Shown one piece after another: positions 13,173 to 29,731 of a DNA stretch of 34,838 bases. Within the stretch, counting starts at the first letter, position 1, and each line of letters opens with the position of its first letter. Under the pieces are notes generated by a model. It was not told the origin of the DNA, did no database searches, and was given only the letters and a program-made list of their open reading frames with translations. This DNA comes from Desulfobulbaceae bacterium (GTDB lineage: Bacteria > Desulfobacterota > Desulfobulbia > Desulfobulbales > Desulfobulbaceae), in contig WFUT01000150.1 in the NCBI GenBank assembly GCA_015484845.1, positions 1 to 34,838 on the forward strand, in the 5' to 3' direction. The position numbers were made by a program, and so were the translations under genes.

Positions 13173-13260
13173 GGGCCGGCCGCGGCTTCTGGTGGAACCG
13201 TGAATCGCCTGCCCGTGGAACGGTCTCCGGAATGTGAACCTCTCCTTCGGTACCAAGTAT

Positions 13261-15909
13261 ATGCTGAAATGCCTGCGAGACAACAGACCCTGCCTGCCGG
13301 TCCGGTGGGTGCGGTGGGTGCTGCGGCACGGACCTGTCCTGCTCCTGCTGACCCTCTGCGGCACCGGGGTGCTGCTCTATTTCACGGTCCGCAATTTCCG
13401 GATCAACACCGATCTCACCGAGATGATCTCGGCGAAACTCTCCTTTCGCCGGGACGTGCAGAAGTTCCACCGGGAGTTCCCGCAGCTGGTCGGCAACGTG
13501 GTCGTGGTGGTGCAGGGCGACTCGCCGGAACAGGCCCGCCAGGCCAGGAACCTGCTCGCCGGCCGGCTGGCAAAGGAGAACACGCTCTTTCGCTCGGTCT
13601 ATGCGCCGGGTGCCGGTCCTTTTTTTGCCCGCAACGGCCTGCTCTACCTCGGCCGGGACAGGCTGGAGGAACTGGGGGACAGGCTGGCGGAGATGCAGCC
13701 CTTCCTGGCGCTCCTGTCGCGGGACTTTTCCCTGTCAGGACTCTTCAAGGTGCTCACCGACCTCGTGGAGCAGAAGGATATCTCCCTGTCTGAAAACGAC
13801 CGGATTCTCGTGCTCTTCGACCGGCTGGCGCGGGTGTTCTCCGCGGTCGGTGCCGGCAGGAGCGCCCACATGGACTGGCAGTCCCTGGTCATGACCGGCC
13901 GCGCCGGCCGGGGGGAGCAGCAGTTCATCCTCCTGCAGCCGGCCGGCGGTGGCAGGGGCAACCCGGTCAAGCGGGCAGTACAGGCCATCCACCGCGCGGC
14001 GGATGACCTGCACCTTGCCGACCGTTTCGGCACCAGGATCAGTATCACCGGCAAGCCGGTGATCAACTGGGAAGACCTGCGGAGCGTTCGGCGCGACATC
14101 ACCATCGCCTCGCTGGTCTCCTTTGTCCTGGTCGGCATCGTCCTCTACCTGGGGCTGGGCTCCATGCGGCTGGTACTGGCCGGTCTTTTCACCCTGGTGG
14201 TGGGGCTTGCCTGGACCATCGGCTTCGCCATCCTGGTGGTGGGCCAGCTCAACATGATCTCGGTCACCTTCGTGGTCCTCTTCATCGGCCTGGGCATCGA
14301 CTACGGCATCCAGATCTTTCTCCGCTACAAGGAGCTGCTCATCCACGGCCGGCCGCACATGGACGCCATCGCCGAGGCGGTCTCCGCCACCGCCAACAGC
14401 CTGCTCCTGTGCGCCATATCGACGGCCATCGGTTTTTATGCCTTTGTGCCCACGGCCTATGTCGGGGCCTCGGAGCTGGGTATCATCTCCGGTACCGGCA
14501 TGTTTCTCATCTTCCTGGCCTCCATCACCGTGCTGCCGGCCCTCATGGCCCTGCTGCCGGAGCAGAAGAGACAGGCCCTGCCCCTGGCCATGGGAGGGAC
14601 CGTCGCCCGATGGCTGACCCGTTACCCGCGGCCCATCCTGGCCATGGCCGGGGCGGCGCTGGTGGGGTCGCTGCTGCTCCTGCCGCGCATCACCTTTGAC
14701 ACCAATCCCTTTCACATGTCGGACCAGGGAGCGCCGGCGGTGCGGGCCGCCATGCGCCTCTTTGCCGGTGAACGGACCACGCCCTGGACCATCTCGGTCC
14801 TGGCCCCGGACCGGCGGCAGGCCCGGCAGCTTGCCAGGCGGCTGAAGGCCCTGCCCGAGGTCGGCTCGGCCATCACCATTGATGATTTTGTCCCGGCGCA
14901 CCAGGAGGAGAAACTGGCCCAGATCGAGGACATGGCCCTGACCATGCCGCCGGCCCCGGTCACCGGCAGCGCACCGGCTCCGCAGCGCTACCAGCGGGAC
15001 CGCGCGGCGCTGCTCGCCCTGGGCAGGGCCCTGGATCGGCGCCTGGCAGCGGGAGGAATGGAGCGCCGGGTGCAGGAGAAGATGGCCGCCCTGGCCGCCG
15101 GCGTGCACGGGATCGAACAACAGCTTACCGGCGCAGACCGGGAGAAGCAGGTCTTTGACCGGCTCGAGCAGGCCCTGCTGCCCGATCTCGGCGCCCTTAT
15201 CCGGCGACTGAACCGGTTGATGGCGGCCAGGCCGGTCACCCTGGCGGATTTACCACCTGAGCTTGTCAGGCGCTACGTCTCGGCCGACCACCACTACCGC
15301 ATCCAGGTCTTTCCCAGCCGCGATCTCAGGGACCGGCGCAACCTGGAGCAGTTTGTCAGCGCCGTCACCGCCATCGCCCCCCATGCCACGGACCAGCCGG
15401 TGACCATTCTCAGGGCGGGCCAGACCATCGTCAGGGCCTTTCGCAACGCCTCGATCCTGGCCTTTGTCCTGATCGCACTCTTCCTGCGCCTGACCATGCG
15501 CACCTGGACCGAGGTGCTCCTGGTGGTGGCGCCGCTCGTCCTCGCCCTCTGCTACACCGCGGCGGCAGCGGTGCTGCTGGCCATCCCGTTCAATTTTGCC
15601 AACATCATCGTTGTGCCGCTCCTGCTGGGCATCGGGGTCGATGCCGGTATCCATGTCCTGCACAGGGTGCGGGAGGTGCACGGCCGGACCATCCACGTCC
15701 TGGAGACCAGCACGGCCCGGGCCGTGCTCTTCAGCTCCCTGACCACGGTGATGAGCTTCGGCACCCTGTCCTTCATGCACCATGCAGGGACGGCCAGCAT
15801 GGGCAAGCTGCTCACCCTGAGCGTCACCATGATGATCATCTGTACCCTGATCGTCCTGCCCGCCTGGCTGGAGCTGTTCAACCCGTTTACGGCCAGGGAA
15901 AAGGAATGA
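13261..15909 (+). CDS. hpnN: Hopanoid transporter HpnN (RND superfamily)
   Basis: This protein of about 882 residues is an MMPL/RND-type exporter. It has two repeats, each with one membrane helix, a large periplasmic domain and a block of five or six helices. The first block includes FVVLFIGLGIDYGIQIFLRYKE and the second NIIVVPLLLGIGVDAGIHVLHR, the paired GxGxDxG motifs of the proton-relay helices. HpnN is known in Rhodopseudomonas and Burkholderia to move hopanoids to the outer membrane. ATG 13261 is used here; an in-frame GTG at 13234 would add nine residues, and neither has a clear Shine-Dalgarno sequence. It lies downstream of hpnL and converges on hpnM. Confidence 0.92.
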   Translation: MLKCLRDNRPCLPVRWVRWVLRHGPVLLLLTLCGTGVLLYFTVRNFRINTDLTEMISAKLSFRRDVQKFHREFPQLVGNVVVVVQGDSPEQARQARNLLAGRLAKENTLFRSVYAPGAGPFFARNGLLYLGRDRLEELGDRLAEMQPFLALLSRDFSLSGLFKVLTDLVEQKDISLSENDRILVLFDRLARVFSAVGAGRSAHMDWQSLVMTGRAGRGEQQFILLQPAGGGRGNPVKRAVQAIHRAADDLHLADRFGTRISITGKPVINWEDLRSVRRDITIASLVSFVLVGIVLYLGLGSMRLVLAGLFTLVVGLAWTIGFAILVVGQLNMISVTFVVLFIGLGIDYGIQIFLRYKELLIHGRPHMDAIAEAVSATANSLLLCAISTAIGFYAFVPTAYVGASELGIISGTGMFLIFLASITVLPALMALLPEQKRQALPLAMGGTVARWLTRYPRPILAMAGAALVGSLLLLPRITFDTNPFHMSDQGAPAVRAAMRLFAGERTTPWTISVLAPDRRQARQLARRLKALPEVGSAITIDDFVPAHQEEKLAQIEDMALTMPPAPVTGSAPAPQRYQRDRAALLALGRALDRRLAAGGMERRVQEKMAALAAGVHGIEQQLTGADREKQVFDRLEQALLPDLGALIRRLNRLMAARPVTLADLPPELVRRYVSADHHYRIQVFPSRDLRDRRNLEQFVSAVTAIAPHATDQPVTILRAGQTIVRAFRNASILAFVLIALFLRLTMRTWTEVLLVVAPLVLALCYTAAAAVLLAIPFNFANIIVVPLLLGIGVDAGIHVLHRVREVHGRTIHVLETSTARAVLFSSLTTVMSFGTLSFMHHAGTASMGKLLTLSVTMMIICTLIVLPAWLELFNPFTAREKE

Positions 15910-15944
15910 CGGCTTGCCGGGGGCCAGGGGCCGCTGCGGCGGGA

Positions 15945-15965
15945 AACGGCTCAGCCGTTGTTTTC
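15945..15965 (+). terminator. Weak candidate terminator after hpnN
   Basis: The hairpin AACGGC-TCA-GCCGTT (15945-15959) is followed by GTTTTC, 36 bp after the hpnN stop. The loop contains the stop codon of the convergent hpnM. The short T run makes termination uncertain. Confidence 0.35.
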
Positions 15966-16568
15966 GAGCTTGCTGATCTTTTTGTCCAGGATGCCGAGCA
16001 GGCCGCTGATCCCGTCCTTCCTGAGCACGGACTTGAACTGGGACCTGGTCAGGGCCAGCTGGCTGACGCCCTCCACCTGGATGTCAATGATCATCCACCT
16101 GTCATTGTGGCGGAGCAGCAGGTAGGTGAGATCACGGGGCTTCTTTTCCGGCCGGGTGATGCGGCAGGTCACCTTGACGAACCTGTCCCGGACAGGACGG
16201 CTGTCGATGATGGTGAACCGCTGGCCCTTGTAGTGGGCGAACCGCCTGGCATAGGTGCCCACCGACCAGGTGATGTACTTGGTCAGCAGTTCCTTCTGCT
16301 GGGCCGGTTCCAGTTTCTTCCAGAAGGAGCCGGTGGATTTCCTGACCATGAATTCGTAGAAGAAGGAGTTGCGCATCACCGGTTCGAGCAGGGCATAGCG
16401 CCCCTTGAACCCGAGGCTTTCCCCTTTTTTCATGCAGGTGAGCAGGGTGGAGTTCAGGGTCTCGATGACCCGGGTCGCCTCGCCGACGGCAGCGTCCTGC
16501 CCGGCCCGGCAGGGGATTGTCATGGCAAGGGCGAGGAAAACGACAGGAAGGAAAAGAGCATGCTTCAT
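15951..16568 (-). CDS. hpnM: Hopanoid-associated MlaC/Ttg2D-family periplasmic protein HpnM
   Basis: This 205-residue protein has a signal peptide (hydrophobic core at about residues 5-17, cleavage near CRA-GQ at 22) followed by an MlaC/toluene-tolerance domain. Family features include YALLEPVMRNSFFYEFMVRK, TYARRFAHYKGQRFTIID and RHNDRWMIIDIQVEGVS. MlaC-type proteins carry lipids across the periplasm; HpnM is the hopanoid-cluster member and presumably works with HpnN. The ATG at 16568 has AGGA 9 bp upstream. It is transcribed towards hpnN, with 41 bp between the two stop codons. Confidence 0.9.
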   Translation of the reverse strand: MKHALFLPVVFLALAMTIPCRAGQDAAVGEATRVIETLNSTLLTCMKKGESLGFKGRYALLEPVMRNSFFYEFMVRKSTGSFWKKLEPAQQKELLTKYITWSVGTYARRFAHYKGQRFTIIDSRPVRDRFVKVTCRITRPEKKPRDLTYLLLRHNDRWMIIDIQVEGVSQLALTRSQFKSVLRKDGISGLLGILDKKISKLENNG

Positions 16569-16611
16569 GGTTCGGGTCCTGTTATGTTCAGCCACGCGCC
16601 GGGCTGATTTT

Positions 16612-16620
16612 TTTATACCA
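16612..16620 (-). promoter_or_regulatory. Candidate extended -10 promoter for hpnM
   Basis: On the minus strand the sequence reads TGGTATAAA, an extended -10 element with TATAAA at 16612-16617. It would place the start of transcription about 37 nt before the hpnM ATG. No -35 box is seen at the usual distance. Confidence 0.4.
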
Positions 16621-16729
16621 ATATTGCAGTGTATGGGGTACATCAGCAGAATGATTCTCAGTGGCTGCCGCCGGCCCGGTACGGGCGGGAGCCGGGATGC
16701 GGACCGGTCTGCGTCCGCGGCCGTCTCCG

Positions 16730-16774
16730 GCCCTTGGGGCGCCGCAACCCCGGTAAAATTGCCAAGTGCAGGAT
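16730..16774 (+). repeat. Structured dispersed repeat, copy 2 (diverged), upstream of ispH
   Basis: Forty-five bases align without gaps to positions 25-69 of the window at about 37 of 45. The best conserved block is AAAATTGCCAA, one variable base, TGCAGGAT. The outer CCTGC arm is lost, and hairpin A is replaced by a possible GGGG/CCCC pairing. It ends 30 bp before the ispH ATG, in the same orientation as that gene. Confidence 0.6.
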
Positions 16775-16804
16775 TCAGGAACAAAAAAATACGACGGAAG
16801 AACG

Positions 16805-17743
16805 ATGGAAATAATTCTTGCCAAACCGCGCGGTTTCTGTGCCGGCGTCAACAGGGCCATCGCCATTGTCAACGAGGCCCTGCGGCGATACGGGGCCCCG
16901 GTATACGTGCTGCACGAGATTGTCCATAACACCTATGTCGTCAACAGCCTCGCGGACAAGGGAGCGGTCTTTGTCAGGTCCCTGGACGATATTCCCACCG
17001 GTTCGGTCACCATCTTCAGCGCCCACGGCGTCTCCCGGGCTGTGGAGGAGCAGGCCCGTTCCCTGGGGTTGCATGTTATCGACGCCACCTGTCCACTGGT
17101 GACAAGGGTACACCGTCGTGTGGCCAGGCTCAATAAAATTGGTTACGACGTGCTCATTATCGGGCACAGGCGCCACCCCGAGGTGGAGGGCACCTGCGGC
17201 AGGGCCGTGGGCCGGGTCCATGTCATCTCCAATGGTGACGACGTGGCAGAGCTCCGGGTCGCGGACCGCAACCGGGTGGGCTATGTCACCCAGACCACGC
17301 TGAGCATGGACGATGCCGCGCTGCTGATCGGCCTGCTCAAGGAGAAGTTCCCGGAAATCGATATTCCGGACCGGACCGATATCTGTTATGCTACCCAGAA
17401 CCGCCAGACCGCGGTCCGCGAGCTTGCCGGCCGTGTTGACCTCTTCCTGGTCGTGGGGTCAAGGAACAGTTCCAATTCCAACCGGCTGCGCGAGGTGGCG
17501 GCAAAGCAGGGCGTCCGGGCCTATCTCATCGACAGCCGGGAGGAGATCGACCCTGCCTGGCTGGAAGGCGTGCGCCGGGTGGGCATCACCGCCGGCGCAT
17601 CGGCGCCCGAGGTCCTGGTTGAAGAGGTCGTTGACTGGTTGAAGAAACGGCAGCCGTCCACGGTGCAGGAGATGGACGGCCCGGTGGAGAACACCAGGTT
17701 CAAGCTGCCCGAACTGCCGGATTTCGCCCTGCAGGAAACATGA
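16805..17743 (+). CDS. ispH: 4-hydroxy-3-methylbut-2-enyl diphosphate reductase
   Basis: This 312-residue iron-sulfur enzyme performs the last MEP-pathway step, reducing HMBPP to IPP and DMAPP. The three cluster cysteines are C12 (GFCAGV), C96 (DATCPLV) and C194 (ICYATQNRQ). The catalytic glutamate E126 (HPEVEGT), the histidines H41, H74 and H124, and the SNSNRL signature are all present. The length matches the family. The ATG at 16805 has GGAAG about 5 bp upstream. It supplies isoprenoid units for squalene and hopanoids and is placed three bases before the DUF116 gene, which shows a shared transcript. A diverged copy of the 53-bp repeat lies immediately upstream. Confidence 0.96.
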   Translation: MEIILAKPRGFCAGVNRAIAIVNEALRRYGAPVYVLHEIVHNTYVVNSLADKGAVFVRSLDDIPTGSVTIFSAHGVSRAVEEQARSLGLHVIDATCPLVTRVHRRVARLNKIGYDVLIIGHRRHPEVEGTCGRAVGRVHVISNGDDVAELRVADRNRVGYVTQTTLSMDDAALLIGLLKEKFPEIDIPDRTDICYATQNRQTAVRELAGRVDLFLVVGSRNSSNSNRLREVAAKQGVRAYLIDSREEIDPAWLEGVRRVGITAGASAPEVLVEEVVDWLKKRQPSTVQEMDGPVENTRFKLPELPDFALQET

Positions 17744-17746
17744 ACG

Positions 17747-18652
17747 ATGAAAGAACTCAAACTCACCACGGTCCAGGAATTTGACCGGGAGGACCTGGAG
17801 GCGGGCAAGGCCAAGAAGCGCCTGTTCATCGGCCTGGTGGCCGCCGCCGGCACCGCGGTCACCCTGTTTCTGGTCCTGGTCCTGGTCCTGCCGATCATCG
17901 GCCTGCGCAATATCCATCCCTGGGCGCCCTATATCTTCAGTGTCCTGGTCGGCAGCCTGATCCTGCTGGTGGTCTGGGCCACGGTGGGCCTGGTGCTCAG
18001 CATCCTGTTCGGCCGCTCGCTCCTGCTTTTTTCCAGGATGCGGGGCCTGACCATCAAGCTCTTCCTGCCCCTGATGATCCTGGTCGGCAAGCTGCTGGGC
18101 ATACCCAAGGACCGGATCCGTTCCTCGTTCGTCAAGGTCAACAATGACCTGGTGGGCAGGACCGACAAGCGGTTCAAGCCCGGCGAGCTGCTCCTGCTCA
18201 TGCCGCACTGCCTGCAGAACTCCAGGTGCAAGATGCGCCTTACCTACTCGATCCACAACTGCAAGCGGTGCGGCAAGTGCCCCATTGACAGCCTGATCGG
18301 CCTCAGCGAACGCTACGGCATCCACCTGGCCATTGCCACCGGCGGCACCATTGCCCGCCGGATCGTGGTCCAGCGCCGGCCCAGGATGATCCTGGCCGTG
18401 GCCTGTGAGCGGGACCTGGCCAGCGGCATCCAGGATACCTATCCCCTGCCGGTGTTCGGGGTCCTCAATTTCCGGCCGCACGGCCCCTGCCTGGACACCA
18501 ATGTGCCCCTCGACGTCCTGGAACAGGCCATCCGCAGGTTCATGGATCCCCGCTGGTACCCGGAAAACCGGCCCGTGGACCTGGACAAGATGCGCCTGGT
18601 CAAGGGCGGCGGCCAGTCGGGCCGGGAAAAGAAGACGACCCGGGCCGGCTAG
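17747..18652 (+). CDS. DUF116 membrane protein with cysteine cluster
   Basis: This 301-residue protein has two or three membrane segments (about residues 26-50, 62-88 and 101-118) followed by a soluble DUF116 domain. Seven cysteines stand out: C155, C161, C172, C175, C178, C220 and C248, including HNCKRCGKCP. These suggest an iron-sulfur or metal site. DUF116 proteins are widespread in anaerobes, but function is not established. It begins 3 bp after the ispH stop codon, so it is translationally linked to that iron-sulfur enzyme. The 3' region runs 260 bp to hpnH. Confidence 0.88.
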   Translation: MKELKLTTVQEFDREDLEAGKAKKRLFIGLVAAAGTAVTLFLVLVLVLPIIGLRNIHPWAPYIFSVLVGSLILLVVWATVGLVLSILFGRSLLLFSRMRGLTIKLFLPLMILVGKLLGIPKDRIRSSFVKVNNDLVGRTDKRFKPGELLLLMPHCLQNSRCKMRLTYSIHNCKRCGKCPIDSLIGLSERYGIHLAIATGGTIARRIVVQRRPRMILAVACERDLASGIQDTYPLPVFGVLNFRPHGPCLDTNVPLDVLEQAIRRFMDPRWYPENRPVDLDKMRLVKGGGQSGREKKTTRAG

Positions 18653-18796
18653 AACGGCTGCCGTCGGACCTGTTCCACCGCCGCGGCCGGTGCGCGTCAC
18701 CCGGGGCCCGTGGCGGCACCCTTTTTCCCGGAAATTCCAGCCCGCGGCGCAGGAGACGGCACCGTTTTCATGCTGTCTTGAGGCTGCGACCTGAAA

Positions 18797-18819
18797 GCCG
18801 GTCCGGCCGTGTTTTTATT
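18797..18819 (+). terminator. Weak candidate terminator after DUF116
   Basis: The hairpin GCCGG-T-CCGGC (18797-18807) is followed by CGTGTTTTTATTT. The stem is only four to five pairs, so read-through to hpnH is plausible. It lies immediately before repeat copy 3. Confidence 0.3.
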
Positions 18820-18821
18820 TA

Positions 18822-18874
18822 ACGCCTGCGCCCTTGATGCCCCGCATCTCCGGCAAAATTGCCAACTGCAGGAT
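18822..18874 (+). repeat. 53-bp structured dispersed repeat, copy 3, upstream of hpnH
   Basis: Identical to positions 17-69 except for two T-to-C changes. One is in the three-base loop of hairpin A and the other in the unpaired junction, so all proposed stems (CCTGC/GCAGG, GATGC/GCATC, GGCA/TGCC) are kept. It ends 38 bp before the hpnH ATG and has the same orientation as hpnH. Confidence 0.75.
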
Positions 18875-18912
18875 GTAGGTTCTTATCTCCCCCTTCACAG
18901 GCACGTATTATC

Positions 18913-19920
18913 ATGGGTATTCCCGCGTTACAGAAACGGCGCATCGGTGCGTATATCATCGGCCGCATGCTCAGGAGAACCGACAGGTTTCCCCTGGTCC
19001 TGATGCTCGAGCCGCTCTTTCTCTGCAACCTGCACTGCAAGGGATGCGGCAAGATCAACCAGCCCAGGGAGATCATGGAACAGATGCTGTCCGTGGACGA
19101 GTGCGTGGGCGCGGCAGAGGAATGCGGCGCGCCGGTGGTGACCATTGCCGGCGGCGAGCCCCTGCTGCACCCGCAGATCCACACCATTGTCGGCCAGCTG
19201 GTCCGGCGAAAGCGGTTTGTCTACCTCTGCACCAACGGCCTGCTCGTCGAGCGCAGGCTGGAGGGATTTTCACCCAGCCCCTACCTGACCTTCAATATTC
19301 ATTTCGACGGCCTGGCCGAACGCCACGATGCCGCCGTCTGCCACGAGGGTGCCTTTGCCAAGGCAACGGCGGCGATCCGGAAACTGGTGGCCGCCGGCTT
19401 CCGGGTCACCACCAACACCACCTTTTTCAAGGGGCAGAGCGCCGAGGATGCGGCCCGACTGTTCGATCACCTCAGCTCGCTGGGAGTCGAGGCCATGACC
19501 GTGGCCGCCGGCTTTAACTATGAAAACGCCGACGACCAGGACAGCTTCCTGGGCCGGGAGGGGACCAAGCAGCTCTTTCGCGAGATCCTGCGCCAGGCCA
19601 AGCCGGAGTGGACCTTCAACCACTCGGGCCTGTACCTGGATTTCCTGGCCGGCAACCGGGAGCTGACCTGCACGCCCTGGGGCAACCCCACGCGGACCCT
19701 CAAGGGATGGCAGCGTCCCTGTTACCTGCTGGCCGACGGCTATGCGCGGAGTTTCAAAGAGCTCATGGAAGAGACCGACTGGGACCGCTACGGTGTCGGC
19801 CGGGAGCCGCGCTGTGCCGACTGCATGGTCCATTGCGGCTTCGAGCCATCGGCCGTGCTCGAGACCGTGCGCCATCCGTTCAGCGCCCTCCGGGTGGCCC
19901 TGCGTGGCCCGGGCCGCTGA
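18913..19920 (+). CDS. hpnH: Adenosyl-hopene transferase HpnH (radical SAM)
   Basis: This 335-residue radical SAM enzyme adds the 5'-deoxyadenosyl group to diploptene, the first step in making the C35 hopanoid side chain. The cluster motif is C38-x3-C42-x2-C45 (CNLHCKGC), the glycine-rich TIAGGEPLLHP follows, and the C-terminus has CADCMVHCGF. The N-terminus MGIPALQKRRIGAYIIG is characteristic of HpnH and sets the ATG at 18913. The Shine-Dalgarno sequence is weak. Its 3' end overlaps the convergent hpnG by 41 bp, an arrangement that could produce antisense interference. Confidence 0.93.
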   Translation: MGIPALQKRRIGAYIIGRMLRRTDRFPLVLMLEPLFLCNLHCKGCGKINQPREIMEQMLSVDECVGAAEECGAPVVTIAGGEPLLHPQIHTIVGQLVRRKRFVYLCTNGLLVERRLEGFSPSPYLTFNIHFDGLAERHDAAVCHEGAFAKATAAIRKLVAAGFRVTTNTTFFKGQSAEDAARLFDHLSSLGVEAMTVAAGFNYENADDQDSFLGREGTKQLFREILRQAKPEWTFNHSGLYLDFLAGNRELTCTPWGNPTRTLKGWQRPCYLLADGYARSFKELMEETDWDRYGVGREPRCADCMVHCGFEPSAVLETVRHPFSALRVALRGPGR

Positions 19921-20653
19921 GAGAGCCGCGGACCAGGGGCGTGCAGGCGGCCTGCCATGCCTGTTCCATCTGCCTGCGGGCGCGGGCAAAGTCCCTGGCC
20001 ATGGCCAGGAGCGGGCCCAGCAGCCGGGGCCGGCGCGCCAGGGCCGCCAGGACACGCAGCGGCCTGCTGTTGCCCTGGCGGTCCACCCCGCAGAGCAGCT
20101 CCGGCGCGAGCATACGTTCCGCCGGATCGCAGATGACCCGCAGGCAGAAAAACGGCCGGCCGGCGGCTTGGGCGGCATGGGCCGCGGCCGCGCTCTCCAT
20201 GTCCACGGCCAGGGCCCCTGTCTGGCGGTGGGCGGCGAGCTTGTCTGCCGGCGTGAGCAGGGGGGCGTCGGTGCAGAGCAGGGTGCCGCGCCGGCAGGGG
20301 ATGGCGGCCTTTTCCAAGGCCTGTTCCAGCAGGTGGACCAGGTCCCGGCTGCAGGCATAGGCCGGCTCCAGGCCGGGCGCGCGGTTGCAGATCGCCTCGG
20401 CCAGGATCACGGTCCCGGTCTCCAGTTGCGGCGCCAGGGCGCCGGAGACCCCGATGCTGCCCACCAGGCGGGCCCCGGCCACGTGGGGCCGGGATGCTGC
20501 CAGCACGGCCTTGCAGCCGATGCCGCACTGCAGGACCCGGACACTGTCCGCCGGCCGCTGCCGCCGGCAGGCCCGGTCAAGCGATGCCGCCTCGGCGGCC
20601 AGGGCGGCCAGGAGGAGCAGGGCAGGGGAGGTGGTTGCTTGGACTGTGGTCAT
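19880..20653 (-). CDS. hpnG: Adenosylhopane nucleosidase HpnG (phosphorylase superfamily)
   Basis: This 257-residue protein belongs to the nucleoside phosphorylase/MTA-SAH nucleosidase superfamily. Visible features are VGSIGVSGAL near residues 64-73 and the purine/ribose-site VDMESAAAAHAA (D151, M152, E153). HpnG removes adenine from adenosylhopane to give ribosylhopane (or its phosphate), acting directly after HpnH. The ATG at 20653 gives the usual family length, though no clear Shine-Dalgarno sequence is seen. It lies on the strand opposite hpnH and shc: tail-to-tail with hpnH (41-bp overlap) and head-to-head with shc across 234 bp. Confidence 0.88.
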   Translation of the reverse strand: MTTVQATTSPALLLLAALAAEAASLDRACRRQRPADSVRVLQCGIGCKAVLAASRPHVAGARLVGSIGVSGALAPQLETGTVILAEAICNRAPGLEPAYACSRDLVHLLEQALEKAAIPCRRGTLLCTDAPLLTPADKLAAHRQTGALAVDMESAAAAHAAQAAGRPFFCLRVICDPAERMLAPELLCGVDRQGNSRPLRVLAALARRPRLLGPLLAMARDFARARRQMEQAWQAACTPLVRGSLSGPGHAGPPGGR

Positions 20654-20759
20654 ATGCCCGGAAGACAGGGGGACAGGAGCCGGGCCGGTTTGCCTGCCGC
20701 TCTGATGTGATTGTCTGTTGAGGCTGGGCGCTGAAGCCCTGGCCCGGCCATGCTGGTTG

Positions 20760-20776
20760 AACCGGAAACACCGGTT
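20760..20776. repeat. Inverted repeat between hpnG and shc
   Basis: AACCGG (20760-20765) and CCGGTT (20771-20776) are separated by AAACA. There is no T tract, so it is more likely an operator or leader hairpin than a terminator. Confidence 0.4.
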
Positions 20777-20777
20777 T

Positions 20778-20827
20778 GATCCCGCATCACCTGGATCCCG
20801 CAGTTGCCGAACCCGGCGGGCGGGATT
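20778..20827. promoter_or_regulatory. Three GATCCCGC-like half-sites upstream of shc
   Basis: GATCCCGC occurs at 20778-20785 and 20794-20801, 16 bp apart. An inverted GCGGGATT lies at 20820-20827, where it touches the -35 box of the proposed shc promoter. The arrangement suggests a binding site for an unknown regulator of shc or hpnG. Confidence 0.35.
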
Positions 20828-20854
20828 GAGATTTTCCATACCCGATATTACACT
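20826..20854 (+). promoter_or_regulatory. Candidate sigma70 promoter for shc
   Basis: A -35 box TTGAGA (20826-20831, 5 of 6) is followed by a 17-bp spacer and a -10 box TACACT (20849-20854, 4 of 6). Transcription would begin near 20861, about 27 nt before the ATG at 20888. This also argues against any upstream start codon for shc. Confidence 0.45.
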
Positions 20855-20887
20855 GTCCTGACAGGAAAACCTACATCATCGCAGTCC

Positions 20888-22870
20888 ATGGAACAAGAAC
20901 AACTGGCCCGGTGCGTGGACGCCGCTGTCCGCTGGCTGCTCGACGACCAGGATCCGCAAGGATTCTGGGTCGGCCGTCTCCAGTCCAACTCGTGCATGGA
21001 GGCGGAGTGGGTCCTGGCCATGCATATCATGGGCGTCAAGGATGATCCCAAGTACGAGGGCGTGGTCCGGGCCATCCTGAACGAGCAGCGCGAGGACGGT
21101 TCCTGGGAGGTCTACTACCAGGCCCCCACCGGTGACATCAACACCACGGTCGAGGCATATGCCGCCCTGCGCGCCGCCGGCCTGGACAGGGACAGCGAGC
21201 CCCTGGCCAGGGCGCGGCAGTGGATCCTGGCCAACGGCGGCCTGTCCGGCATCCGGGTCTTTACCCGCTACTGGCTGGCCCTGATCGGCGAATGGCCCTG
21301 GGAACATACCCCGGCCCTGCCGCCGGAGATCATCTTCCTGCCCACCTGGACACCGTTCAACCTCTACCGGTTCGCCTCCTGGGCCAGGGCCACCATGCTG
21401 CCCCTGGCCATCCTCACCGCGCGCAGGCCGGTACGTCCCCTGCCTGCCGACCGCCGCCTGGATGAGCTCTTTCCCCGGGGCCGGGACGAATTTGATTACC
21501 GGCTGCCGCGGAAAAAGGGGGCCATGTCCTGGGAGCGGTTTTTTCTCTGCGCCGACCGGGCGCTCAACCGCTACGTGAACGCGCCCTGGCAGCCGCTGCG
21601 CGAGCACGCCATTGCCCGCTGCCGGGAATGGATCATCAGCCACCAGGACGCGGACGGGGCCTGGGGCGGCATCCAGCCGCCCTGGATCTATTCGCTCATG
21701 GCCCTGCATGCCGAGGGGTATGCCCACCACCACCCGGTGCTGGCCGCCGGCCTGAACGGGTTCAACCTGCACTGGTCCTATGAGCGCGACGGCGGCATCT
21801 ACCTGCAGCCCAGCGAATCGCCGATCTGGGACACGGTCCTGGCCCTGCTCGCCCTCCTCGACTGCGGCATGCCCGAGGGCAGCATGGCCGCGGCAGAGCG
21901 GGCCGTTCGTTACCTGCTCCGCAAGCAGGTGCTGGTGGGCGGCGACTGGCAGGTCTTTGTCCCGGACGTGGAGCCGGGCGGCTGGGCCTTTGAGTTTGAA
22001 AATGACAAGTACCCGGACGTGGATGACACGGCCGTGGCCGTGATCGTCCTGCTCCGCCTGGAGCCGCTCATGGCTGATACCGAACTGCGCCGGCAGATGC
22101 GCCGGGCCGTGGAGCGGGCCATCCCATGGATGCTGGCCATGCAGAACCCGTGCGGTGGCTGGGCCGCCTTTGACCGCGACAACACCGGCCGTTTCCTGAC
22201 CCTGATCCCCTTTGCCGATTTCGGTGAACTGCTCGATCCGCCCAGTGTCGATGTGACGGCGCACGTGGTGGAGGCGCTGGGCCTGTACGGCCGGCGGCTG
22301 GATGACCCGGTGGTGGCGCGGGCCTGCCGCTACATACGCGACGAACAGGAAGAGGATGGCCCCTGGTTCGGCCGCTGGGGAGTGAACTATATCTACGGCA
22401 CCGCCGCCGTGCTGCCGGCGCTGGCAGCGGTGGGCGAGGACATGGGCGCCGACTGGGTGCTCAGGGCGGCGCGCTGGCTTGTGGGGCGCCAGAACGAGGA
22501 CGGCGGCTGGGGCGAGAGCTGTGGCTCCTACATGGACGACCGGCTGCGGGGCCGGGGTCCGTCCACCGCCTCCCAGACCGGCTGGGCCCTCATGGCCCTC
22601 TGCGCCGTGGACAGCAACGAGTTTGACCAGGCCATCCGTCGCGGCCTGGAGTATCTCCGGAAATCACAGCGGCCGGACGGCACCTGGGACGAGCCCTGGT
22701 ATACGGGTACCGGTTTTCCCGGCTACGGGGTCGGCGAGCGGATCAACCTGGGCCGGGCGGCCGAGGAGATCGACCAGGGCCGGGAGTTATCCCGCGGCTT
22801 CATGCTCAACTACAACCTCTATCGCCACTACTTCCCGCTCATGGCCATGGGCAGGGCGACACAGGGATAA
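20888..22870 (+). CDS. shc: Squalene-hopene cyclase
   Basis: This 660-residue membrane-associated terpene cyclase converts squalene to hopene/hopanol. The catalytic acid motif DVDDT is at residues 377-381. Several QW repeats are visible: QREDGSW, QDADGAWGG, QNPCGGWAAF, QNEDGGWGE and QRPDGTW, the alpha-barrel signature of the family. The ATG at 20888 is chosen because the earlier part of the frame has no other acceptable start downstream of the proposed promoter, and MEQEQLARCVDAAVRWLLDDQ matches a normal cyclase beginning. Alternative names are hpnF and shc. The 3' end overlaps the convergent chalcone-isomerase-like gene by 43 bp. Confidence 0.96.
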   Translation: MEQEQLARCVDAAVRWLLDDQDPQGFWVGRLQSNSCMEAEWVLAMHIMGVKDDPKYEGVVRAILNEQREDGSWEVYYQAPTGDINTTVEAYAALRAAGLDRDSEPLARARQWILANGGLSGIRVFTRYWLALIGEWPWEHTPALPPEIIFLPTWTPFNLYRFASWARATMLPLAILTARRPVRPLPADRRLDELFPRGRDEFDYRLPRKKGAMSWERFFLCADRALNRYVNAPWQPLREHAIARCREWIISHQDADGAWGGIQPPWIYSLMALHAEGYAHHHPVLAAGLNGFNLHWSYERDGGIYLQPSESPIWDTVLALLALLDCGMPEGSMAAAERAVRYLLRKQVLVGGDWQVFVPDVEPGGWAFEFENDKYPDVDDTAVAVIVLLRLEPLMADTELRRQMRRAVERAIPWMLAMQNPCGGWAAFDRDNTGRFLTLIPFADFGELLDPPSVDVTAHVVEALGLYGRRLDDPVVARACRYIRDEQEEDGPWFGRWGVNYIYGTAAVLPALAAVGEDMGADWVLRAARWLVGRQNEDGGWGESCGSYMDDRLRGRGPSTASQTGWALMALCAVDSNEFDQAIRRGLEYLRKSQRPDGTWDEPWYTGTGFPGYGVGERINLGRAAEEIDQGRELSRGFMLNYNLYRHYFPLMAMGRATQG

Positions 22871-23424
22871 CAGCGCAGCAGGGCCTTCTTCAGGTCCGCG
22901 TCGCCGGGCGTGTTGCCCAGCCAGATGGCGAACAGGGTCTGTTTCAGGGCCAGGTTGTCGATGGTGGCCAGCAGCCTGCCGTTGAAGCTCACCTCCATGC
23001 CGCGGCCGGGCAGCCAGGTCACGTCATAGACATCGTTCTTCCGGACCCGGACCGTGAACAGGCCGCAGAACCGGCGCATGGCCCTCTCCAGGTCCGGGCC
23101 GGCATGGGGCGCCCTCTTCTTGAGCCCCCTCATCCATCCCCTGCTCAGCCGATCGGGCGGAATGCCGTCAAAGAGAAAATGCATCCGCATGAGCATGGGC
23201 GCATCGGCCCTGGCAATGGCGGTGCCGTCCCGGCCCGGCTGCGCCAGGTAGAGGGCGCCGATGTAGATGTCGAGCAGGTACTTGCTGCGGATGCCGGCCC
23301 CGTTCAGGACCAGCCTGTGGCCGTCCACCTCCAGGGAGCAGGGCAGCCGGACGCCGTGGATCTCCATGGCCGTGGCGGGTTGGGCCAGGCAGAGCAGCAG
23401 AAGGATGAGGATGTGTTTTTGCAT
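22828..23424 (-). CDS. Periplasmic chalcone-isomerase-like protein
   Basis: This 198-residue protein has a signal peptide (MQKHILILLLLCLAQPATA, cleavage near residue 19). The mature part resembles bacterial chalcone-isomerase-like proteins: VRLPCSLEVDGHRLVLNGAG, IRSKYLLDIYIGALYL, and the late FAIWLGNTPGDADLKKALL. These bacterial relatives generally lack proven isomerase activity; they may bind fatty acids or other lipids. GGAAG precedes the ATG at 23424. It overlaps the end of shc by 43 bp tail-to-tail. A lipid-binding role near the hopanoid genes is attractive but unproven. Confidence 0.8.
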   Translation of the reverse strand: MQKHILILLLLCLAQPATAMEIHGVRLPCSLEVDGHRLVLNGAGIRSKYLLDIYIGALYLAQPGRDGTAIARADAPMLMRMHFLFDGIPPDRLSRGWMRGLKKRAPHAGPDLERAMRRFCGLFTVRVRKNDVYDVTWLPGRGMEVSFNGRLLATIDNLALKQTLFAIWLGNTPGDADLKKALLRCYPCVALPMAMSGK

Positions 23425-23524
23425 GGCTTCCGGGCTCACGGTTGCATTGCAGGGGTCATGCGCACCGGCCCAGCGCCGGCAGTGGTCTGCAAGGATAGCA
23501 GGAAACCCGGCCCCTGTCACCATC

Positions 23525-25861
23525 TCAGGCCCTGGCCATCATCATGCGGACCTGGCTGTCGAGAAAGGTGTCCATGCGGCGGAGGTATTCCTGTTCCGGG
23601 AGCTGCTGCAGGGCGGCCAGGCGGACCCGCAGGTGCATGGTCTGCAGGCTGGTGGCCAGCCGGGGATCGGCGCCAATTTTCTCTGCCTCGTCCCATTGCT
23701 TCAGGGCCATGTGCGCCTTGAGCCGCTGGTTTTCCATCTCGGCGCTGGTGTCGGCGGCCCGGCGCAGGTAGTGCAGGGCCTCCTCGGCCAGGCCGTTGGC
23801 CAGCAGCACCCGGCCGGCATGCCCCATGACCGAGGGCTCGTCGGGCAGGGTGGCGGCAAGGTCCAGGGCCTTTTCCGTAAAACCCAGTTTCAGGTAGTAG
23901 TTGAACAGGGCCATCATGTGGGGCAGGTTGCCGGTATAGCTGTGCAGGACCGAGTCGCGCAGGACCATGTAGTAGAGGTTCTCGTTGTGCTTCTTGAGGT
24001 TGAAGAGGTCGTCGAAGCGGTACATGTTGCGCGGCGCCTTCTGTTCGACCTCGGCCAGGTCGGTATAGGTGATCGGTTCCAGGACCTGGTGCAGGAAGAC
24101 ATGGAAGGGGATCTCCTGCCCGGCCAGGGCCGGGTTGCCATAATCCGCTGGAAAGCGGACCCTGATCTGGGTGAGGCCGCCGGCCTTGACCCCCTCCATG
24201 CCCTGCTCGAAGTCGGGCAGCAGCCTGCCATCGCCCAGGGTGGCCATCTCAAAGTAACACTCTGTCTCCGGCACCACCTCGCCATCCATCAGTCCCTTGC
24301 AGTCAAAGATGATCCGGCAGCCCTTTTTCGCCACTGCCCGCCGCCTGTTCCTGAAGCAGGCCAGGGGCCGGCGCACCATTTCCTGTACCCGGGGCAGATC
24401 AGGGAAGTTTTCCTGCAGGCGGCGCAGGCAGGCGGCAGCAGGGCCGGGTTCGTCGAGCTGCAGGTAGATGGAGGCCAGCATCATGTCCGCCTCGGGGCAG
24501 CAGGCCAGGAGTTTCCTGTGCCGGGTGATGAAACCGGCAATGGTAAAGAGGCGCCTGCCTGCCCTGATGTCGTCGGCAAAGTCCTGCCGGTTCAGGCGCC
24601 AGAGGAGGCTCATCTGCAGGATCTCTTCCTCGCTCATGGTATCGGTGCGGTAGTCGCGGCCGATACTCATGTAGAGGGGCCGGGTCCGGGGCAGGGGGGT
24701 GATGCCGTGGCGGGCGGGATCGTCGGCCATGGGGGTGCCGAAGAAGAGATGGAGCTGCTGGGAGATCGAGTTGCCGCTGATCTCGACATCGTGCCTGCGG
24801 ACAAAGTCCAGGGTCTTGCGGGCCCTGGCCGGGGTCTCGCCGGGCAGCCCGAACAGGGTGAAGAGCTCGACCCGGATGCCGGCGTCCCGGGTGAGACGGA
24901 TGGCCCTGGAGATACCGTCCGGGTCAAGGCCCTTGCGGATCCTTTGCAGGACCTCGCGGTCAGCCGATTCCAGGCCAAAGGCGATGGTATGGGCACCGGC
25001 CTCTTTGAGCAGGGCCAGGAGTTCTCTGTCAACCAGGTTGTAACGCGTCTGGCACCAGAAGGTTGCCCAGGGCGCCCGGGCGATGATGGCATGGAGCAGG
25101 GCCTCCAGCCGTTCGCGGGACCAGGCGAAGTTGGGGTCGGCAAACCAGAAATCGGTGATGTCGTCCCGTTGGCGAAGGCACTGCATCTCCTCGATCATGC
25201 GGTCGATGGAATGGAAGCGGACGGTCCTGTTGCTGGCCCTGGGGGTATAGCAGAAGGTGCAGTTCGAGGTGCAGCCGCGCGACGAGAGGAGGATGGCCCG
25301 GACCTTGCCCCGGCATTGCAGGGTGCCGTCCAGGTAGGGGGAGGGAAGGGCGTCCAGGGAACCCGTGCCGCAGTGTCGCGGGGTCTCCACAAGCCTGTCG
25401 CCGTCCCGGAAACAGATGCCGTCCACCTCGGCCAGGGTGCCGGAACCGCCGCTGAGAACGCGGGCCAGCGCCGGCATGACCTCTTCGCCCTCGCCCCGGC
25501 AGAGGATATCGGCCTCCGGCATCTGCAACAGCGCCTCGCCCGGCATGAAGGTGACCTGCGGTCCTCCCAGGACCACGGTGATCTCCGGGTCGACCCGCTT
25601 GGCAAAGCTCGCCCACAGCCGCACCTTGTCCATGTTCTCCTGGTAGACGGAAAATCCCACCGCCCGGGGATGGAGTTCCTGCAGGGCGGCCTTGAAGACG
25701 CCGGGCTCCAGGGGCCGGTCCTGGTAATCGCCCAGGATGCGGCCCGGGTAACCGGCCTGCCGGAGGCGGGCAAGGATGTAGCCCTGGGAGATGGGAATGG
25801 CGTCCGGGCTGGCAAAGTTAGCCCATTCGTTGACATGGACAAAGAGAAAGTTTCCGGACAT
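23525..25861 (-). CDS. B12-binding-type radical SAM protein fused to an FKBP-like domain and helical repeats
   Basis: This 778-residue protein has four regions. Residues about 1-160 look like a cobalamin-binding Rossmann domain (PISQGYILARLRQAGYPG, VVLGGPQVTF) but lack a clear DxHxxG. Residues about 185-400 are a radical SAM domain with C197-x3-C201-x2-C204. Residues about 512-596 resemble an FKBP/trigger-factor prolyl isomerase (LGDGRLLPDFEQGMEGVKAG, then ADYGNPALAGQEIPFHVFL). Residues about 640-735 are TPR-like helices. The substrate is unknown; it is too long and differently built to be HpnR, HpnP or HpnJ. GGGAGG lies 7 bp before the ATG at 25861. It is downstream of, but separated by a strong terminator from, the OmpA-like gene. 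Confidence 0.85.
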   Translation of the reverse strand: MSGNFLFVHVNEWANFASPDAIPISQGYILARLRQAGYPGRILGDYQDRPLEPGVFKAALQELHPRAVGFSVYQENMDKVRLWASFAKRVDPEITVVLGGPQVTFMPGEALLQMPEADILCRGEGEEVMPALARVLSGGSGTLAEVDGICFRDGDRLVETPRHCGTGSLDALPSPYLDGTLQCRGKVRAILLSSRGCTSNCTFCYTPRASNRTVRFHSIDRMIEEMQCLRQRDDITDFWFADPNFAWSRERLEALLHAIIARAPWATFWCQTRYNLVDRELLALLKEAGAHTIAFGLESADREVLQRIRKGLDPDGISRAIRLTRDAGIRVELFTLFGLPGETPARARKTLDFVRRHDVEISGNSISQQLHLFFGTPMADDPARHGITPLPRTRPLYMSIGRDYRTDTMSEEEILQMSLLWRLNRQDFADDIRAGRRLFTIAGFITRHRKLLACCPEADMMLASIYLQLDEPGPAAACLRRLQENFPDLPRVQEMVRRPLACFRNRRRAVAKKGCRIIFDCKGLMDGEVVPETECYFEMATLGDGRLLPDFEQGMEGVKAGGLTQIRVRFPADYGNPALAGQEIPFHVFLHQVLEPITYTDLAEVEQKAPRNMYRFDDLFNLKKHNENLYYMVLRDSVLHSYTGNLPHMMALFNYYLKLGFTEKALDLAATLPDEPSVMGHAGRVLLANGLAEEALHYLRRAADTSAEMENQRLKAHMALKQWDEAEKIGADPRLATSLQTMHLRVRLAALQQLPEQEYLRRMDTFLDSQVRMMMARA

Positions 25862-26017: not shown

Positions 26018-29000
26018 TTACTGGCCTGCCGGCGTCTCGGCGGCGGGCGCCGCGGGTGCCTCGGCCGGGGCTGCCGCCGGCGGCGTAGCGGCTGTTGCGG
26101 GCAGGATGTGCAGTTCAACCCGCCTGTTCCTGGCCCGGCCGGCCGGGGTGGAGTTGTCGGCCACCGGATCGGCCTCGCCATAGCCCCTGGCCACCAGCCG
26201 GCCGGGGGCGATGCCCTTGCTGACCAGGTAGTTGAGAACGCGGCGGGCGCGGGCCTCGGAGACCTTCAGGTTGCGGGCGGCATCGCCGATGTTGTCGGTA
26301 TAGCCGGCCACCTCCATGCGCACCTCCGGGTGCTTCCTGAGCAGCAGGACCACCTTGTCCAGGCTCTGCATGGATGCCTTGGTCAGGTCGGCGGTGCCGG
26401 GCCGGAAGGTCACACCGCCGAGGATGACCCGGCCGTTTTCGGCGCAACCCAGTTCGTCGACCTTGGCCCCCGGCGCACTGTGCGGGCAGAGATCCAGCCG
26501 GTCGACAAGACCGTCATGGTCACTGTCCGGTTCGCAGCCCTGGGCATTGACCTTGACCCCTGCCGGGGTGCCGGGGCACTTGTCCTCGGCGTCGACAACA
26601 CCGTCATGGTCGCTGTCGACCGTCTTGCGCTGCAGCTCCTGCTTCTCCCGGCGCAGGGTGTCCAGCTCGGCCTGCAGGCTGTTCACCTTGTCGGTGAGCT
26701 CTGTGGCCTGCTGCCTGCTGTTGGCCAGTTCCTCCTTGAGGCGTCCGGTCTCCTCCTGCAGGGCCTGCAGCTTTTCATTGGCCGCCTTGAGCTGCTGCAC
26801 CTCGTCCCTGGTCCGGGCAAGTTCACCGGTCGCCTTCTGCAGCGATTGCTTGAGTGCGGCCACGGCTGCCGCCGCCTTGAGGCTCTGCTGCAGTTTCTGT
26901 TCGATCTCCTGCTTGGCGCTCACGGCCGCGGCCAGCTTCTCCTGCACCGTGGCCAGCAATCCCTCCTTTTCCTTGACCTGGCTGGAGAGTTGCGCCACCT
27001 GCTGCTGCAGGGAGTTCAGCCTGCCCTCGACCTTCTGCCTGGCTGCCAGGAGTTCGCCGGCGGTCTTCTCCTTCTCCTTGACCATGCCGGTCAGCTCGTC
27101 CACCCTGGCCAGGGCAGCGGAGAGCTTCTGCTGCAGCGCCTGCTCGGCCTTTTTCCGCTTTGCCATCTCGGCGTTCAGCCTGGTCAGGCTGGCCTCGGTG
27201 GCAGAGAGCTTTTTGCCGATCTCCTGCACCTTGCCGGCCGCGGCCCTGGCATCGGCCTCGGCCTTGGCCAGGGCGGCTGTCTTCTTCTCCAACAGGGCCT
27301 TGACCTGGGCAAGCTCCTTGGCTCCTGCCTGTGCCGCGGCGAGCTGTTTCCGCAGGGCTGCCAGCGTTTCGGTCTTCTTCTTGAGCTCGGCCCTGACCTG
27401 GGCAAGCTCCTTGCTTCCGGCCTGTGCCTTGGCAAGCTGCTGCTTGAGAGCGGCCAGTTCCTTGGTCTTCTTCTCCAGCTCGGCCCTGGCCTGGGCAAGT
27501 TCCTTGGTGCCGGCCTGTGCCTTGGCAAGCTGCTGCTGGAGGGCTGTCAGCTCCTTGCTCTTCTTCTGCAGTTCGGTTTTGGCCTGCTCAAGCGCCTTGG
27601 CCCCGGCCTGTGCCGCGGTCAGCTGCTCCTGGAGGGCCGCCAGCTCTTCGGTTTTCTTCTGCAGCGCCGCCTTGGCCTGGGCAAGCTCCTTGGCCCCGGC
27701 CTGTGCCGCAGCGAGCTGTTTCTGCGCTGCTGCCAGGGCGTCGCTCTTCTCCTGCAGGCTGGCTTTCAGTTTTTCCACCGCCTTGGCCGCGGCCCTGGCG
27801 GTCTCCAGCTCGGAGTTCAGGGTGGCCTGCTGGTTCTTCAGGTCGGTGAGCTGCTTGGTCAGCTCGGCCACCTTGCCGTCCTTGTCCTTGATGGCTGCGC
27901 TCAGCTTCTGGTTTTCGGTTTTCAGTTGATCGAGCTTGGCCTGCAGCTCGGTGAGCCGGGCGATCTTGCCCTCTGCCTCGCCCAGGGCGGCGTTCTTCTT
28001 CTCCAGTTCCGCCTTGACGGTCTTCAGCTCGTCCGCTGCCTTGCTTGCCGTCTCCAGGCGGGCGGCCAGATCGGCCTTGTCCTTGTTGGCAGCGTCCAGG
28101 GCCGCGCCCAGCACCTTGATCCGCTTTTCCCTGTCAGCCAGGGAGGCGGTCAGCTCGTCGACACGCTTCTGCAGCGCCTCCCTGGCCTTGCCGGCCTCGG
28201 CAAGCTGCTGCCTTGTCGTGTCCAGGGCCTTTTTGGTCTGGCTGAGTGCCGTCCGCAGGTCCTTGATGGTCCTGGTCGCTGAGCCGAGCCTGTTGCTCAG
28301 GTCCTTGATCTGGTTGTTGAGGATCAGGGAGGATTCGGTCAGGCTGGCCACCTGCCGGACCAGCTCCTGGCCCTGCTGGAAGGAATCGCTGGCATCCTGC
28401 CGTGCCTTGGCCAGCTCGCCACGCAACTGTACCAGCTCACGCTCCTTCTCCTCCATACGCTTCTTGCCGGCCTTGATGGCGGCCTCGAGCCTGGCCAGGG
28501 CCTTGGGCTGCTGCGCAAGTTTTTCCTGCAGGCCGGCGATGGTTTTGCCGGCCCGGTCGAGCTCCTGCTGCCTCTTTGCCAGCTCGTCCTGCAGCATGGC
28601 GATACGTTCCTGCAGCGGCGCAAGCATCCGCTCCTTTTCCTGGCCGTATTTCAGCATGGCCTCGGCCTTGAGGTTGGCCTTCTTCAGGGCGTTCCTGGCC
28701 AGGGAGAGCTGCGAGGTGGTGTCGGTCAGCCGGGCCTTCAGGTTGCCGATCTCGGCAACCCGTTGCTGCAGGTTCTTCTGCAGTTCCTCGATGGTCGCAT
28801 CCTTGTTTGCGGCCAGTTGCTCGGCATCTTTCCTGGCCGACTCGGAGGCGGCCAGGGCCTTCCGCAGGCCGGCAATGGTCTGCCTGGCCGCGTCGAGTTC
28901 CGCTGCCGTCTGCTGCACCCGGGTGGTGAGGGCCTTGATCTGGCCGGTAGCCGCAGCCAGCTTCCTGGCATTTTCCGCCAGGGCCTTTTCCTGTTCCGGC

Positions 29001-29731
29001 ACATGCGCCGCCACGCTCTTGGCTTCCTTGAGCTGCTTGCGCAGCGTATCGTTCTCCTGCCGCGCCCGGGTCAGCTGCTCTTCCGTGGCGGTGAGCTGTT
29101 TCTCCAACCCCTGCAGCCGCTCGGAAACGGTCTTGTCCTTGTTCAGGGCGCTGTTGAGGTTCCTGACCTTGTTCTGCAGGGAGGTGATCTTCTCCCTGGC
29201 CTGGCGCAGCTCGTCCTGCACCTGCTGGTAGTTGGTTGTCAGGGTCTTGCGCAGCATCATGAGCTGGGCGATGCGGTCGTCCCGCCCGATCATCTCGTTG
29301 CGCAGCTTCTCCATCCCCTTTTCCTGCTCCTGCCGCAGCGCCGCCAGCTGCTGTTCTTCCTGCCTGAGCTTTGCCTCCAGCTCCTTTATCCTGGCGTCAC
29401 GCGCGGCCAGTTCCTTGTCCAGGGTGGCCAGCTTTTTCTTGTCCAGCCGGACGCGGTCCCGTTCGGCCAGGGCCTTGTCGCGCTCGGCGCGCAGGCTCTC
29501 GAGCTGCTGCTTCAGGGCAGTTACCTCTTTCCTGGCCTTGAGGAAACGGTCACGGTAGTCTTCCACCTTGTCGCGGAGAGTATTGACCCTGGCCTCGTAT
29601 TCGTTACCGGCCCCGACATGGCCAGCCTCGACGGCGGGAACGCGCTTCTTCAGCAGGGAGCTGTGGTAGCTGGCAAGAAGGATGTAAATCAGTATGCCGA
29701 TAACAGTCAGAATAATAGTGCGTGGCTTCAT
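26018..29731 (-). CDS. Membrane-anchored giant coiled-coil protein with TSP3 repeats and OmpA domain
   Basis: This 1237-residue protein has an N-terminal membrane anchor (about residues 5-23, TIILTVIGILIYILLASY). About 980 residues of nearly unbroken coiled coil rich in Lys, Glu, Gln, Ala and Leu follow. Next come two calcium-binding thrombospondin type-3 repeats (DSDHDGVVDAEDKCPG and DSDHDGLVDRLDLCPH, about 1039-1090), an OmpA-type peptidoglycan-binding domain (about 1097-1212, with MEVAGYTDNIGD and RVLNYLVSKGI) and an Ala/Pro tail. It probably links the inner membrane to the cell wall. Residues about 675-829 are five exact 31-residue tandem units. It follows glgB after 70 bp with no terminator between, so co-transcription is possible. 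Confidence 0.9.
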   Translation of the reverse strand: MKPRTIILTVIGILIYILLASYHSSLLKKRVPAVEAGHVGAGNEYEARVNTLRDKVEDYRDRFLKARKEVTALKQQLESLRAERDKALAERDRVRLDKKKLATLDKELAARDARIKELEAKLRQEEQQLAALRQEQEKGMEKLRNEMIGRDDRIAQLMMLRKTLTTNYQQVQDELRQAREKITSLQNKVRNLNSALNKDKTVSERLQGLEKQLTATEEQLTRARQENDTLRKQLKEAKSVAAHVPEQEKALAENARKLAAATGQIKALTTRVQQTAAELDAARQTIAGLRKALAASESARKDAEQLAANKDATIEELQKNLQQRVAEIGNLKARLTDTTSQLSLARNALKKANLKAEAMLKYGQEKERMLAPLQERIAMLQDELAKRQQELDRAGKTIAGLQEKLAQQPKALARLEAAIKAGKKRMEEKERELVQLRGELAKARQDASDSFQQGQELVRQVASLTESSLILNNQIKDLSNRLGSATRTIKDLRTALSQTKKALDTTRQQLAEAGKAREALQKRVDELTASLADREKRIKVLGAALDAANKDKADLAARLETASKAADELKTVKAELEKKNAALGEAEGKIARLTELQAKLDQLKTENQKLSAAIKDKDGKVAELTKQLTDLKNQQATLNSELETARAAAKAVEKLKASLQEKSDALAAAQKQLAAAQAGAKELAQAKAALQKKTEELAALQEQLTAAQAGAKALEQAKTELQKKSKELTALQQQLAKAQAGTKELAQARAELEKKTKELAALKQQLAKAQAGSKELAQVRAELKKKTETLAALRKQLAAAQAGAKELAQVKALLEKKTAALAKAEADARAAAGKVQEIGKKLSATEASLTRLNAEMAKRKKAEQALQQKLSAALARVDELTGMVKEKEKTAGELLAARQKVEGRLNSLQQQVAQLSSQVKEKEGLLATVQEKLAAAVSAKQEIEQKLQQSLKAAAAVAALKQSLQKATGELARTRDEVQQLKAANEKLQALQEETGRLKEELANSRQQATELTDKVNSLQAELDTLRREKQELQRKTVDSDHDGVVDAEDKCPGTPAGVKVNAQGCEPDSDHDGLVDRLDLCPHSAPGAKVDELGCAENGRVILGGVTFRPGTADLTKASMQSLDKVVLLLRKHPEVRMEVAGYTDNIGDAARNLKVSEARARRVLNYLVSKGIAPGRLVARGYGEADPVADNSTPAGRARNRRVELHILPATAATPPAAAPAEAPAAPAAETPAGQ
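27245..27709 (-). repeat. Five tandem 93-bp repeats inside the coiled-coil gene
   Basis: The marker CCTGTGCC on the plus strand recurs at 27328, 27421, 27514, 27607 and 27700, exactly 93 bp apart. Each unit encodes 31 residues of the type AQAGxKELAQxKxxLxKK followed by TxELAALxxQLA. The units differ by scattered substitutions, so the array is old enough to have diverged but has kept its length. Confidence 0.9.

Follow-up and report, generated by a model that had tools for sequence, protein, structure and literature searches.

Cobalamin-dependent radical SAM enzymes such as CysS, TokK, AprD4, ApyD, HpnJ and BchE are the closest described relatives of the protein reported here. They have in common with it an N-terminal B12-binding-type domain followed by a radical SAM domain, with significant matches in each case, and among solved structures CysS and AprD4 are closest to its radical SAM half. 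However, the equivalog cut-offs of these named enzymes are far from reached (114.5 against 750 for ApyD and 113.3 against 577.6 for HpnJ in NCBIfam), and no match covers the FKBP and repeat region. That region finds its nearest counterpart in the PPIase domain of trigger factor, which resembles residues 511–597, but four pocket positions are changed and the domain is fused here to a radical SAM enzyme. The methyl-coenzyme M reductase of methanogens is a target of YcaO as well as of B12 radical SAM enzymes. The likeness to these modifiers lies in a YcaO-TPR gene whose nearest model is that of McrA thioamidation and that stands beside the long (FKBP-containing) form of the present gene, and in the match of its short form (without FKBP) to the model of the McrA glutamine C-methyltransferase; both matches remain under the cut-offs, the adjacency is confined to one genus, and the FKBP domain and repeats are a feature of the protein described here. 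E. coli YcaO, which carries a TPR domain, thioamidates a folded protein, the ribosomal protein uL16 (PMC13063428). In the genome of the present gene it is likewise a TPR module of YcaO that resembles the partner of the short-form radical SAM protein. The YcaO found here is nearer to the methanogen type, so uL16 is not carried over as a substrate, and nothing here connects ribosomal proteins with the radical SAM enzyme.

The gene occupies positions 23525..25861 on the minus strand of the window (the whole stretch of DNA analysed, 34,838 nucleotides), with the ATG start at 25861 and the stop codon ending at 23525. According to its translation and to Pfam and NCBIfam matches, the 778-aa product is a B12-binding-type radical SAM protein with a trigger-factor-type FKBP domain and helical repeats. 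The B12-binding-type (Rossmann) domain comprises residues 20–133 (25463..25804, minus strand, as are all parts of the gene; PF02310, E 6.8e-18) and the Radical_SAM domain residues 193–354 (24800..25285; PF04055, E 2.1e-23). The latter contains the CxxxCxxC motif at residues 197–204 (25250..25273), whose cysteines C197, C201 and C204 are expected to be the ligands of a 4Fe-4S cluster and are invariant in the alignment of 30 relatives. The core domain together with this motif places the protein in the radical SAM superfamily, and the N-terminal Rossmann domain (PF02310) is the one typical of the cobalamin-dependent class; it probably holds cobalamin, although such a domain is no proof of this in itself. 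TPR-like helices precede the FKBP domain (residues 436–497, 24371..24556), with a weak TPR_19 match whose best stretch, 456–496, scores 27.1 bits against a Pfam cut-off of 25. The trigger-factor-type FKBP domain itself (residues 511–597, 24071..24331; FKBP_C, tig and PDB profile matches) is followed by C-terminal helical repeats (residues 612–778, 23528..24028), which are seen as helices in a low-confidence AlphaFold model and give a weak TPR_16 match at 651–705. The Pfam cut-offs are passed by B12-binding, Radical_SAM, FKBP_C and TPR_19, the repeats at about 651–705 being weaker. Elsewhere in the same genome nothing clearly related to these C-terminal repeats was found.

The individual parts of the protein are of known kinds, and their combination is without description in the open-access papers searched, in which no radical SAM-FKBP or radical SAM-trigger-factor fusion was found. 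Among the curated NCBIfam models there is none whose cut-off is reached by the 778-aa protein, and none of the plasmid records searched covers 80% of the query.

The preliminary description proposed a radical SAM enzyme fused to an FKBP/trigger-factor-like domain at residues 512–596, and both the fusion and these nearly exact limits were borne out. FKBP_C matches residues 511–585 over its cut-off (E 1.4e-7, 32.1 bits against 21.1), and the NCBIfam trigger factor model (tig) matches residues 500–597 with E 1.1e-15. The tig match is limited to model positions 138–235, i.e. the middle (PPIase) part, and its 57 bits lie under the whole-protein cut-off of 180, which is to be expected of a single domain. 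No match to the ribosome-binding and C-terminal parts of trigger factor was found in the 778-aa protein with Pfam or NCBIfam. Compared with solved structures, the FKBP fragment aligns with the PPIase domain of E. coli trigger factor (1l1p) at E 1.2e-8 over about 84 residues without gaps. A profile built from 16 relatives recovers the trigger-factor PPIase at E=1.5e-17, and its top seven PDB matches are all trigger factors. Judged by these profiles, the kinship of the FKBP region with trigger factor is far beyond chance. AlphaFold2, run on a 4-sequence alignment of the window protein and three related loci, gave poor models, with a mean pLDDT of 59.5 when the whole protein was modelled and of 60.3 with the FKBP fragment, so the assignment of the fold rests on the sequence profiles. 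The best PDB matches of the low-confidence fragment model in Foldseek are again trigger factors, with SlyD, FkpA and FKBP51 lower, none of them below E 0.001, which agrees weakly with an FKBP fold and does not prove it.

The distribution of the gene was followed within one phylum, in 194 genomes of the order Desulfobulbales and in other families. It is present in 23 of the 194 genomes of the order, one of which (G006) has the short form; the relatives outside the order belong to families f31, f70, f85 and f39 of the same phylum. The order of domains given in the preliminary description (B12-type radical SAM, FKBP, helical repeats) is correct, and a search of other genomes found it kept in relatives across several families of the phylum. 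Almost every long relative retains the FKBP domain, both in Desulfobulbales and in three further families, and FKBP_C is matched at E 0.01 or better by 26 of the 30 aligned sequences. Within the order its mean identity is 63%, equal to that of the B12-binding and post-radical-SAM parts. In comparison with other families it amounts to 38%, against 20–24% for the TPR parts and 13–14% for the linkers, which rules out the reading of residues 500–600 as a variable linker: by these identities the FKBP region is a constrained domain. One long relative, L051 (G494), has a degraded FKBP copy in which most of the domain is lost and the other parts of the protein are kept. An apparent operon surrounds the degraded-FKBP long form of this genome (L084, 610-7356); it includes a 303-aa cysteine-containing protein without a Pfam match. 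Recoding of an in-frame TAG was considered for three relatives and rejected: in L022 and L027 it is an ordinary stop near the end, and L024 is a single case. In L024 (G105), a long form, the TAG falls at a serine position within CxxxCxxC and is a mutation or an assembly error.

Other families of the phylum have a shorter version of the protein, about 428 residues long (the short form), which terminates after the radical SAM part and has no FKBP arm. In 12 of the 12 clustered short-form windows a separate TPR protein is encoded downstream on the same strand. Its gene overlaps the short-form gene or sits near it, the exception being L099 with two genes in between. In that locus (G295, 6480-8068) the intervening genes encode a Thi4-family protein and a methyltransferase. 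The TPR partner has spaced cysteines in the N-terminal region and TPRs in the C-terminal one. By our own reading the cysteine region is SPASM-like, and no Pfam domain names it. In the tree of the radical SAM halves short and long forms are separated (99/95), with weak support for the long group (69/44), and one change only is required between the two forms. No genome of these samples contains both of them at E 1e-50, contig fragments aside. A profile comparison of the C-terminal repeats of the long form with the TPRs of the partner gives a generic repeat match only. Both forms probably serve one and the same function, the arm for the substrate being separate in one and fused in the other.

Our preferred reading, in which we have about even confidence, is that a radical SAM enzyme of the B12-binding class modifies a protein and that the FKBP/repeat arm presents this substrate. 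The iron-sulfur cluster and SAM would generate a radical, and cobalamin in the N-terminal domain would donate a methyl group or join another radical step. The FKBP domain and the flanking helical repeats would form a substrate-handling arm, gripping the protein at a stretch that contains proline or is partly unfolded and presenting this stretch to the active site, and in the short relatives the adjacent TPR protein would substitute for this arm. That the FKBP domain presents the substrate is our inference. A protein substrate, one of the two kinds named in the preliminary description, is plausible: the FKBP and TPR modules speak for it in an indirect way, as do the dedicated TPR partner of the short forms and the closeness of that partner's TPRs to those of YcaO; the conservation of the fusion also suggests that a protein is the target of modification. 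Against the preferred reading, the long form has no operon shared between genera, half of the FKBP pocket is altered, one relative (L051) has lost most of the domain, and the structure models are poor. If the reading is true, a trigger-factor-type FKBP domain inside a radical enzyme would be an unusual way of capturing a protein substrate. The contrast between the long form (fused FKBP and repeats) and the short form (separate TPR protein) provides a route to this substrate, namely whatever both arms bind.

The FKBP domain might, on the other hand, serve the enzyme itself as an intramolecular folding aid or an assembly module without contact to the substrate. We consider this unlikely, and the state of the binding pocket bears on it from both sides. 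Pocket positions were numbered by a gap-free alignment to E. coli trigger factor (1w26), where we take F168, F177, E178, F185, I195, F198, Y221 and F233 to line the pocket. F198 corresponds to F551 (29 of 30 sequences), Y221 to Y574 (29/30) and F233 to F586 (25/30), while I195 is replaced by L548, with L or V in nearly all relatives. The positions of F168, F177 and E178 are changed, mostly to C/I/S, V/I/F and P/T, respectively, and that of F185 is variable, with W in distant relatives. The trigger-factor pocket is half conserved and half altered, and the altered half agrees with a role in the enzyme's own folding, as do the short forms, which do without the domain, and the degraded copy in L051. 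However, the surface and pocket positions F551, Y574, G557, G561, F570 and P571 are nearly invariant across 31–87% overall identity, which exceeds the needs of a spacer. The domain is likely to have a groove. Catalysis of isomerization by it is uncertain: activity is unproven because only half of the pocket positions are conserved, and as four of them are changed the domain may not bind proline peptides in the manner of trigger factor.

Directly downstream of the gene, at 22828..23427 on the minus strand, lies a chalcone isomerase-like gene (PF16036, E 3.4e-45), which follows in the three relatives of this genus only. Further on, a hopanoid-type group on the plus strand (13234-22870) encodes an MMPL transporter, IspH (LytB), a DUF116 protein, a DUF3463 radical SAM protein (HpnH-like) and a squalene-hopene cyclase. 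It could be supposed that a hopanoid or another lipid is modified, as by HpnJ or HpnR, and that the FKBP domain has some other role. The cyclase and the HpnH-like protein nearby in the window would fit such a function, and HpnJ ranks near the top of the sub-threshold NCBIfam matches. Nevertheless, we hold it to be distinctly improbable: the cyclase cluster (c13) adjoins the gene in this genus only (3 windows), the HpnJ score is 113 against a cut-off of 578, and a lipid enzyme would not usually carry FKBP and TPR modules.

A more specific version of a protein substrate would be a protein of anaerobic sulfur respiration, such as DsrC or the sulfite reductase DsrAB, with a YcaO enzyme perhaps taking part in its modification. 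Within genus g85 (family f31) DsrC adjoins the long form in all five genomes, and the YcaO-TPR gene on its other side is clear in four of them. In G276 the short form and its partner are followed by dsrA, dsrB and dsrC, and in G006 by an hmc operon; in G494 the long form is accompanied by two NarJ/TorD-type chaperones and by another protein containing a B12-binding domain. An interpretation of the operon beside L098 as dsrMKJOP was dropped, as NCBIfam names HmcA and HmcF there instead. When the genome of the window is searched with the TPR region of a short-form partner, the TPR module of YcaO comes first (1.7e-31; next match 1e-10). The sole YcaO of this genome (L102, C74:76450-77949) consists of YcaO and TPR repeats, and it is the YcaO in L079, a relative of L102, that is closest to the McrA-thioamidation model, under its cut-off. 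These genomic clues, drawn from few lineages, point to anaerobic-respiration proteins as the substrate. Against them, the dsr arrangement of G276 is not conserved in its relative L096, genes of these kinds are frequent in the genomes concerned, and a rough estimate for the dsr and hmc adjacencies arising by chance, with few lineages, is p about 0.04. Of the 194 genomes of the order, 184 have YcaO, against 23 with the present gene, and the co-occurrence of YcaO is uninformative since it is nearly universal there. We regard a sulfur-respiration substrate as quite improbable, and we give equally little credence to the idea that the radical SAM-FKBP protein and YcaO-TPR constitute a maturation system for DsrAB/DsrC, a bacterial counterpart of the methyl-coenzyme M reductase modifiers. 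Should the substrate nevertheless belong to sulfur respiration, rare protein modifications would be a requirement of sulfite reduction, as they are of methanogenesis.

It is very improbable that the protein matures a RiPP from a small precursor: ApyD and rSAM_ocin_1 rank high among the NCBIfam matches under threshold, but their cut-offs are far from reached, and the linked peptide substrate considered in the preliminary description is weakened because no short ORF within 1.5 kb of the gene, and for the long form no operon, is conserved across genera. The two largest clusters of the first neighbourhood scan proved to be ORFs antisense to the gene itself and were discarded. Directly upstream of the gene, at 26018-29731 on the minus strand of the window, a 1237-aa coiled-coil protein with thrombospondin type 3-like repeats and a C-terminal OmpA domain is encoded; its gene is absent in L087 and present in L086.
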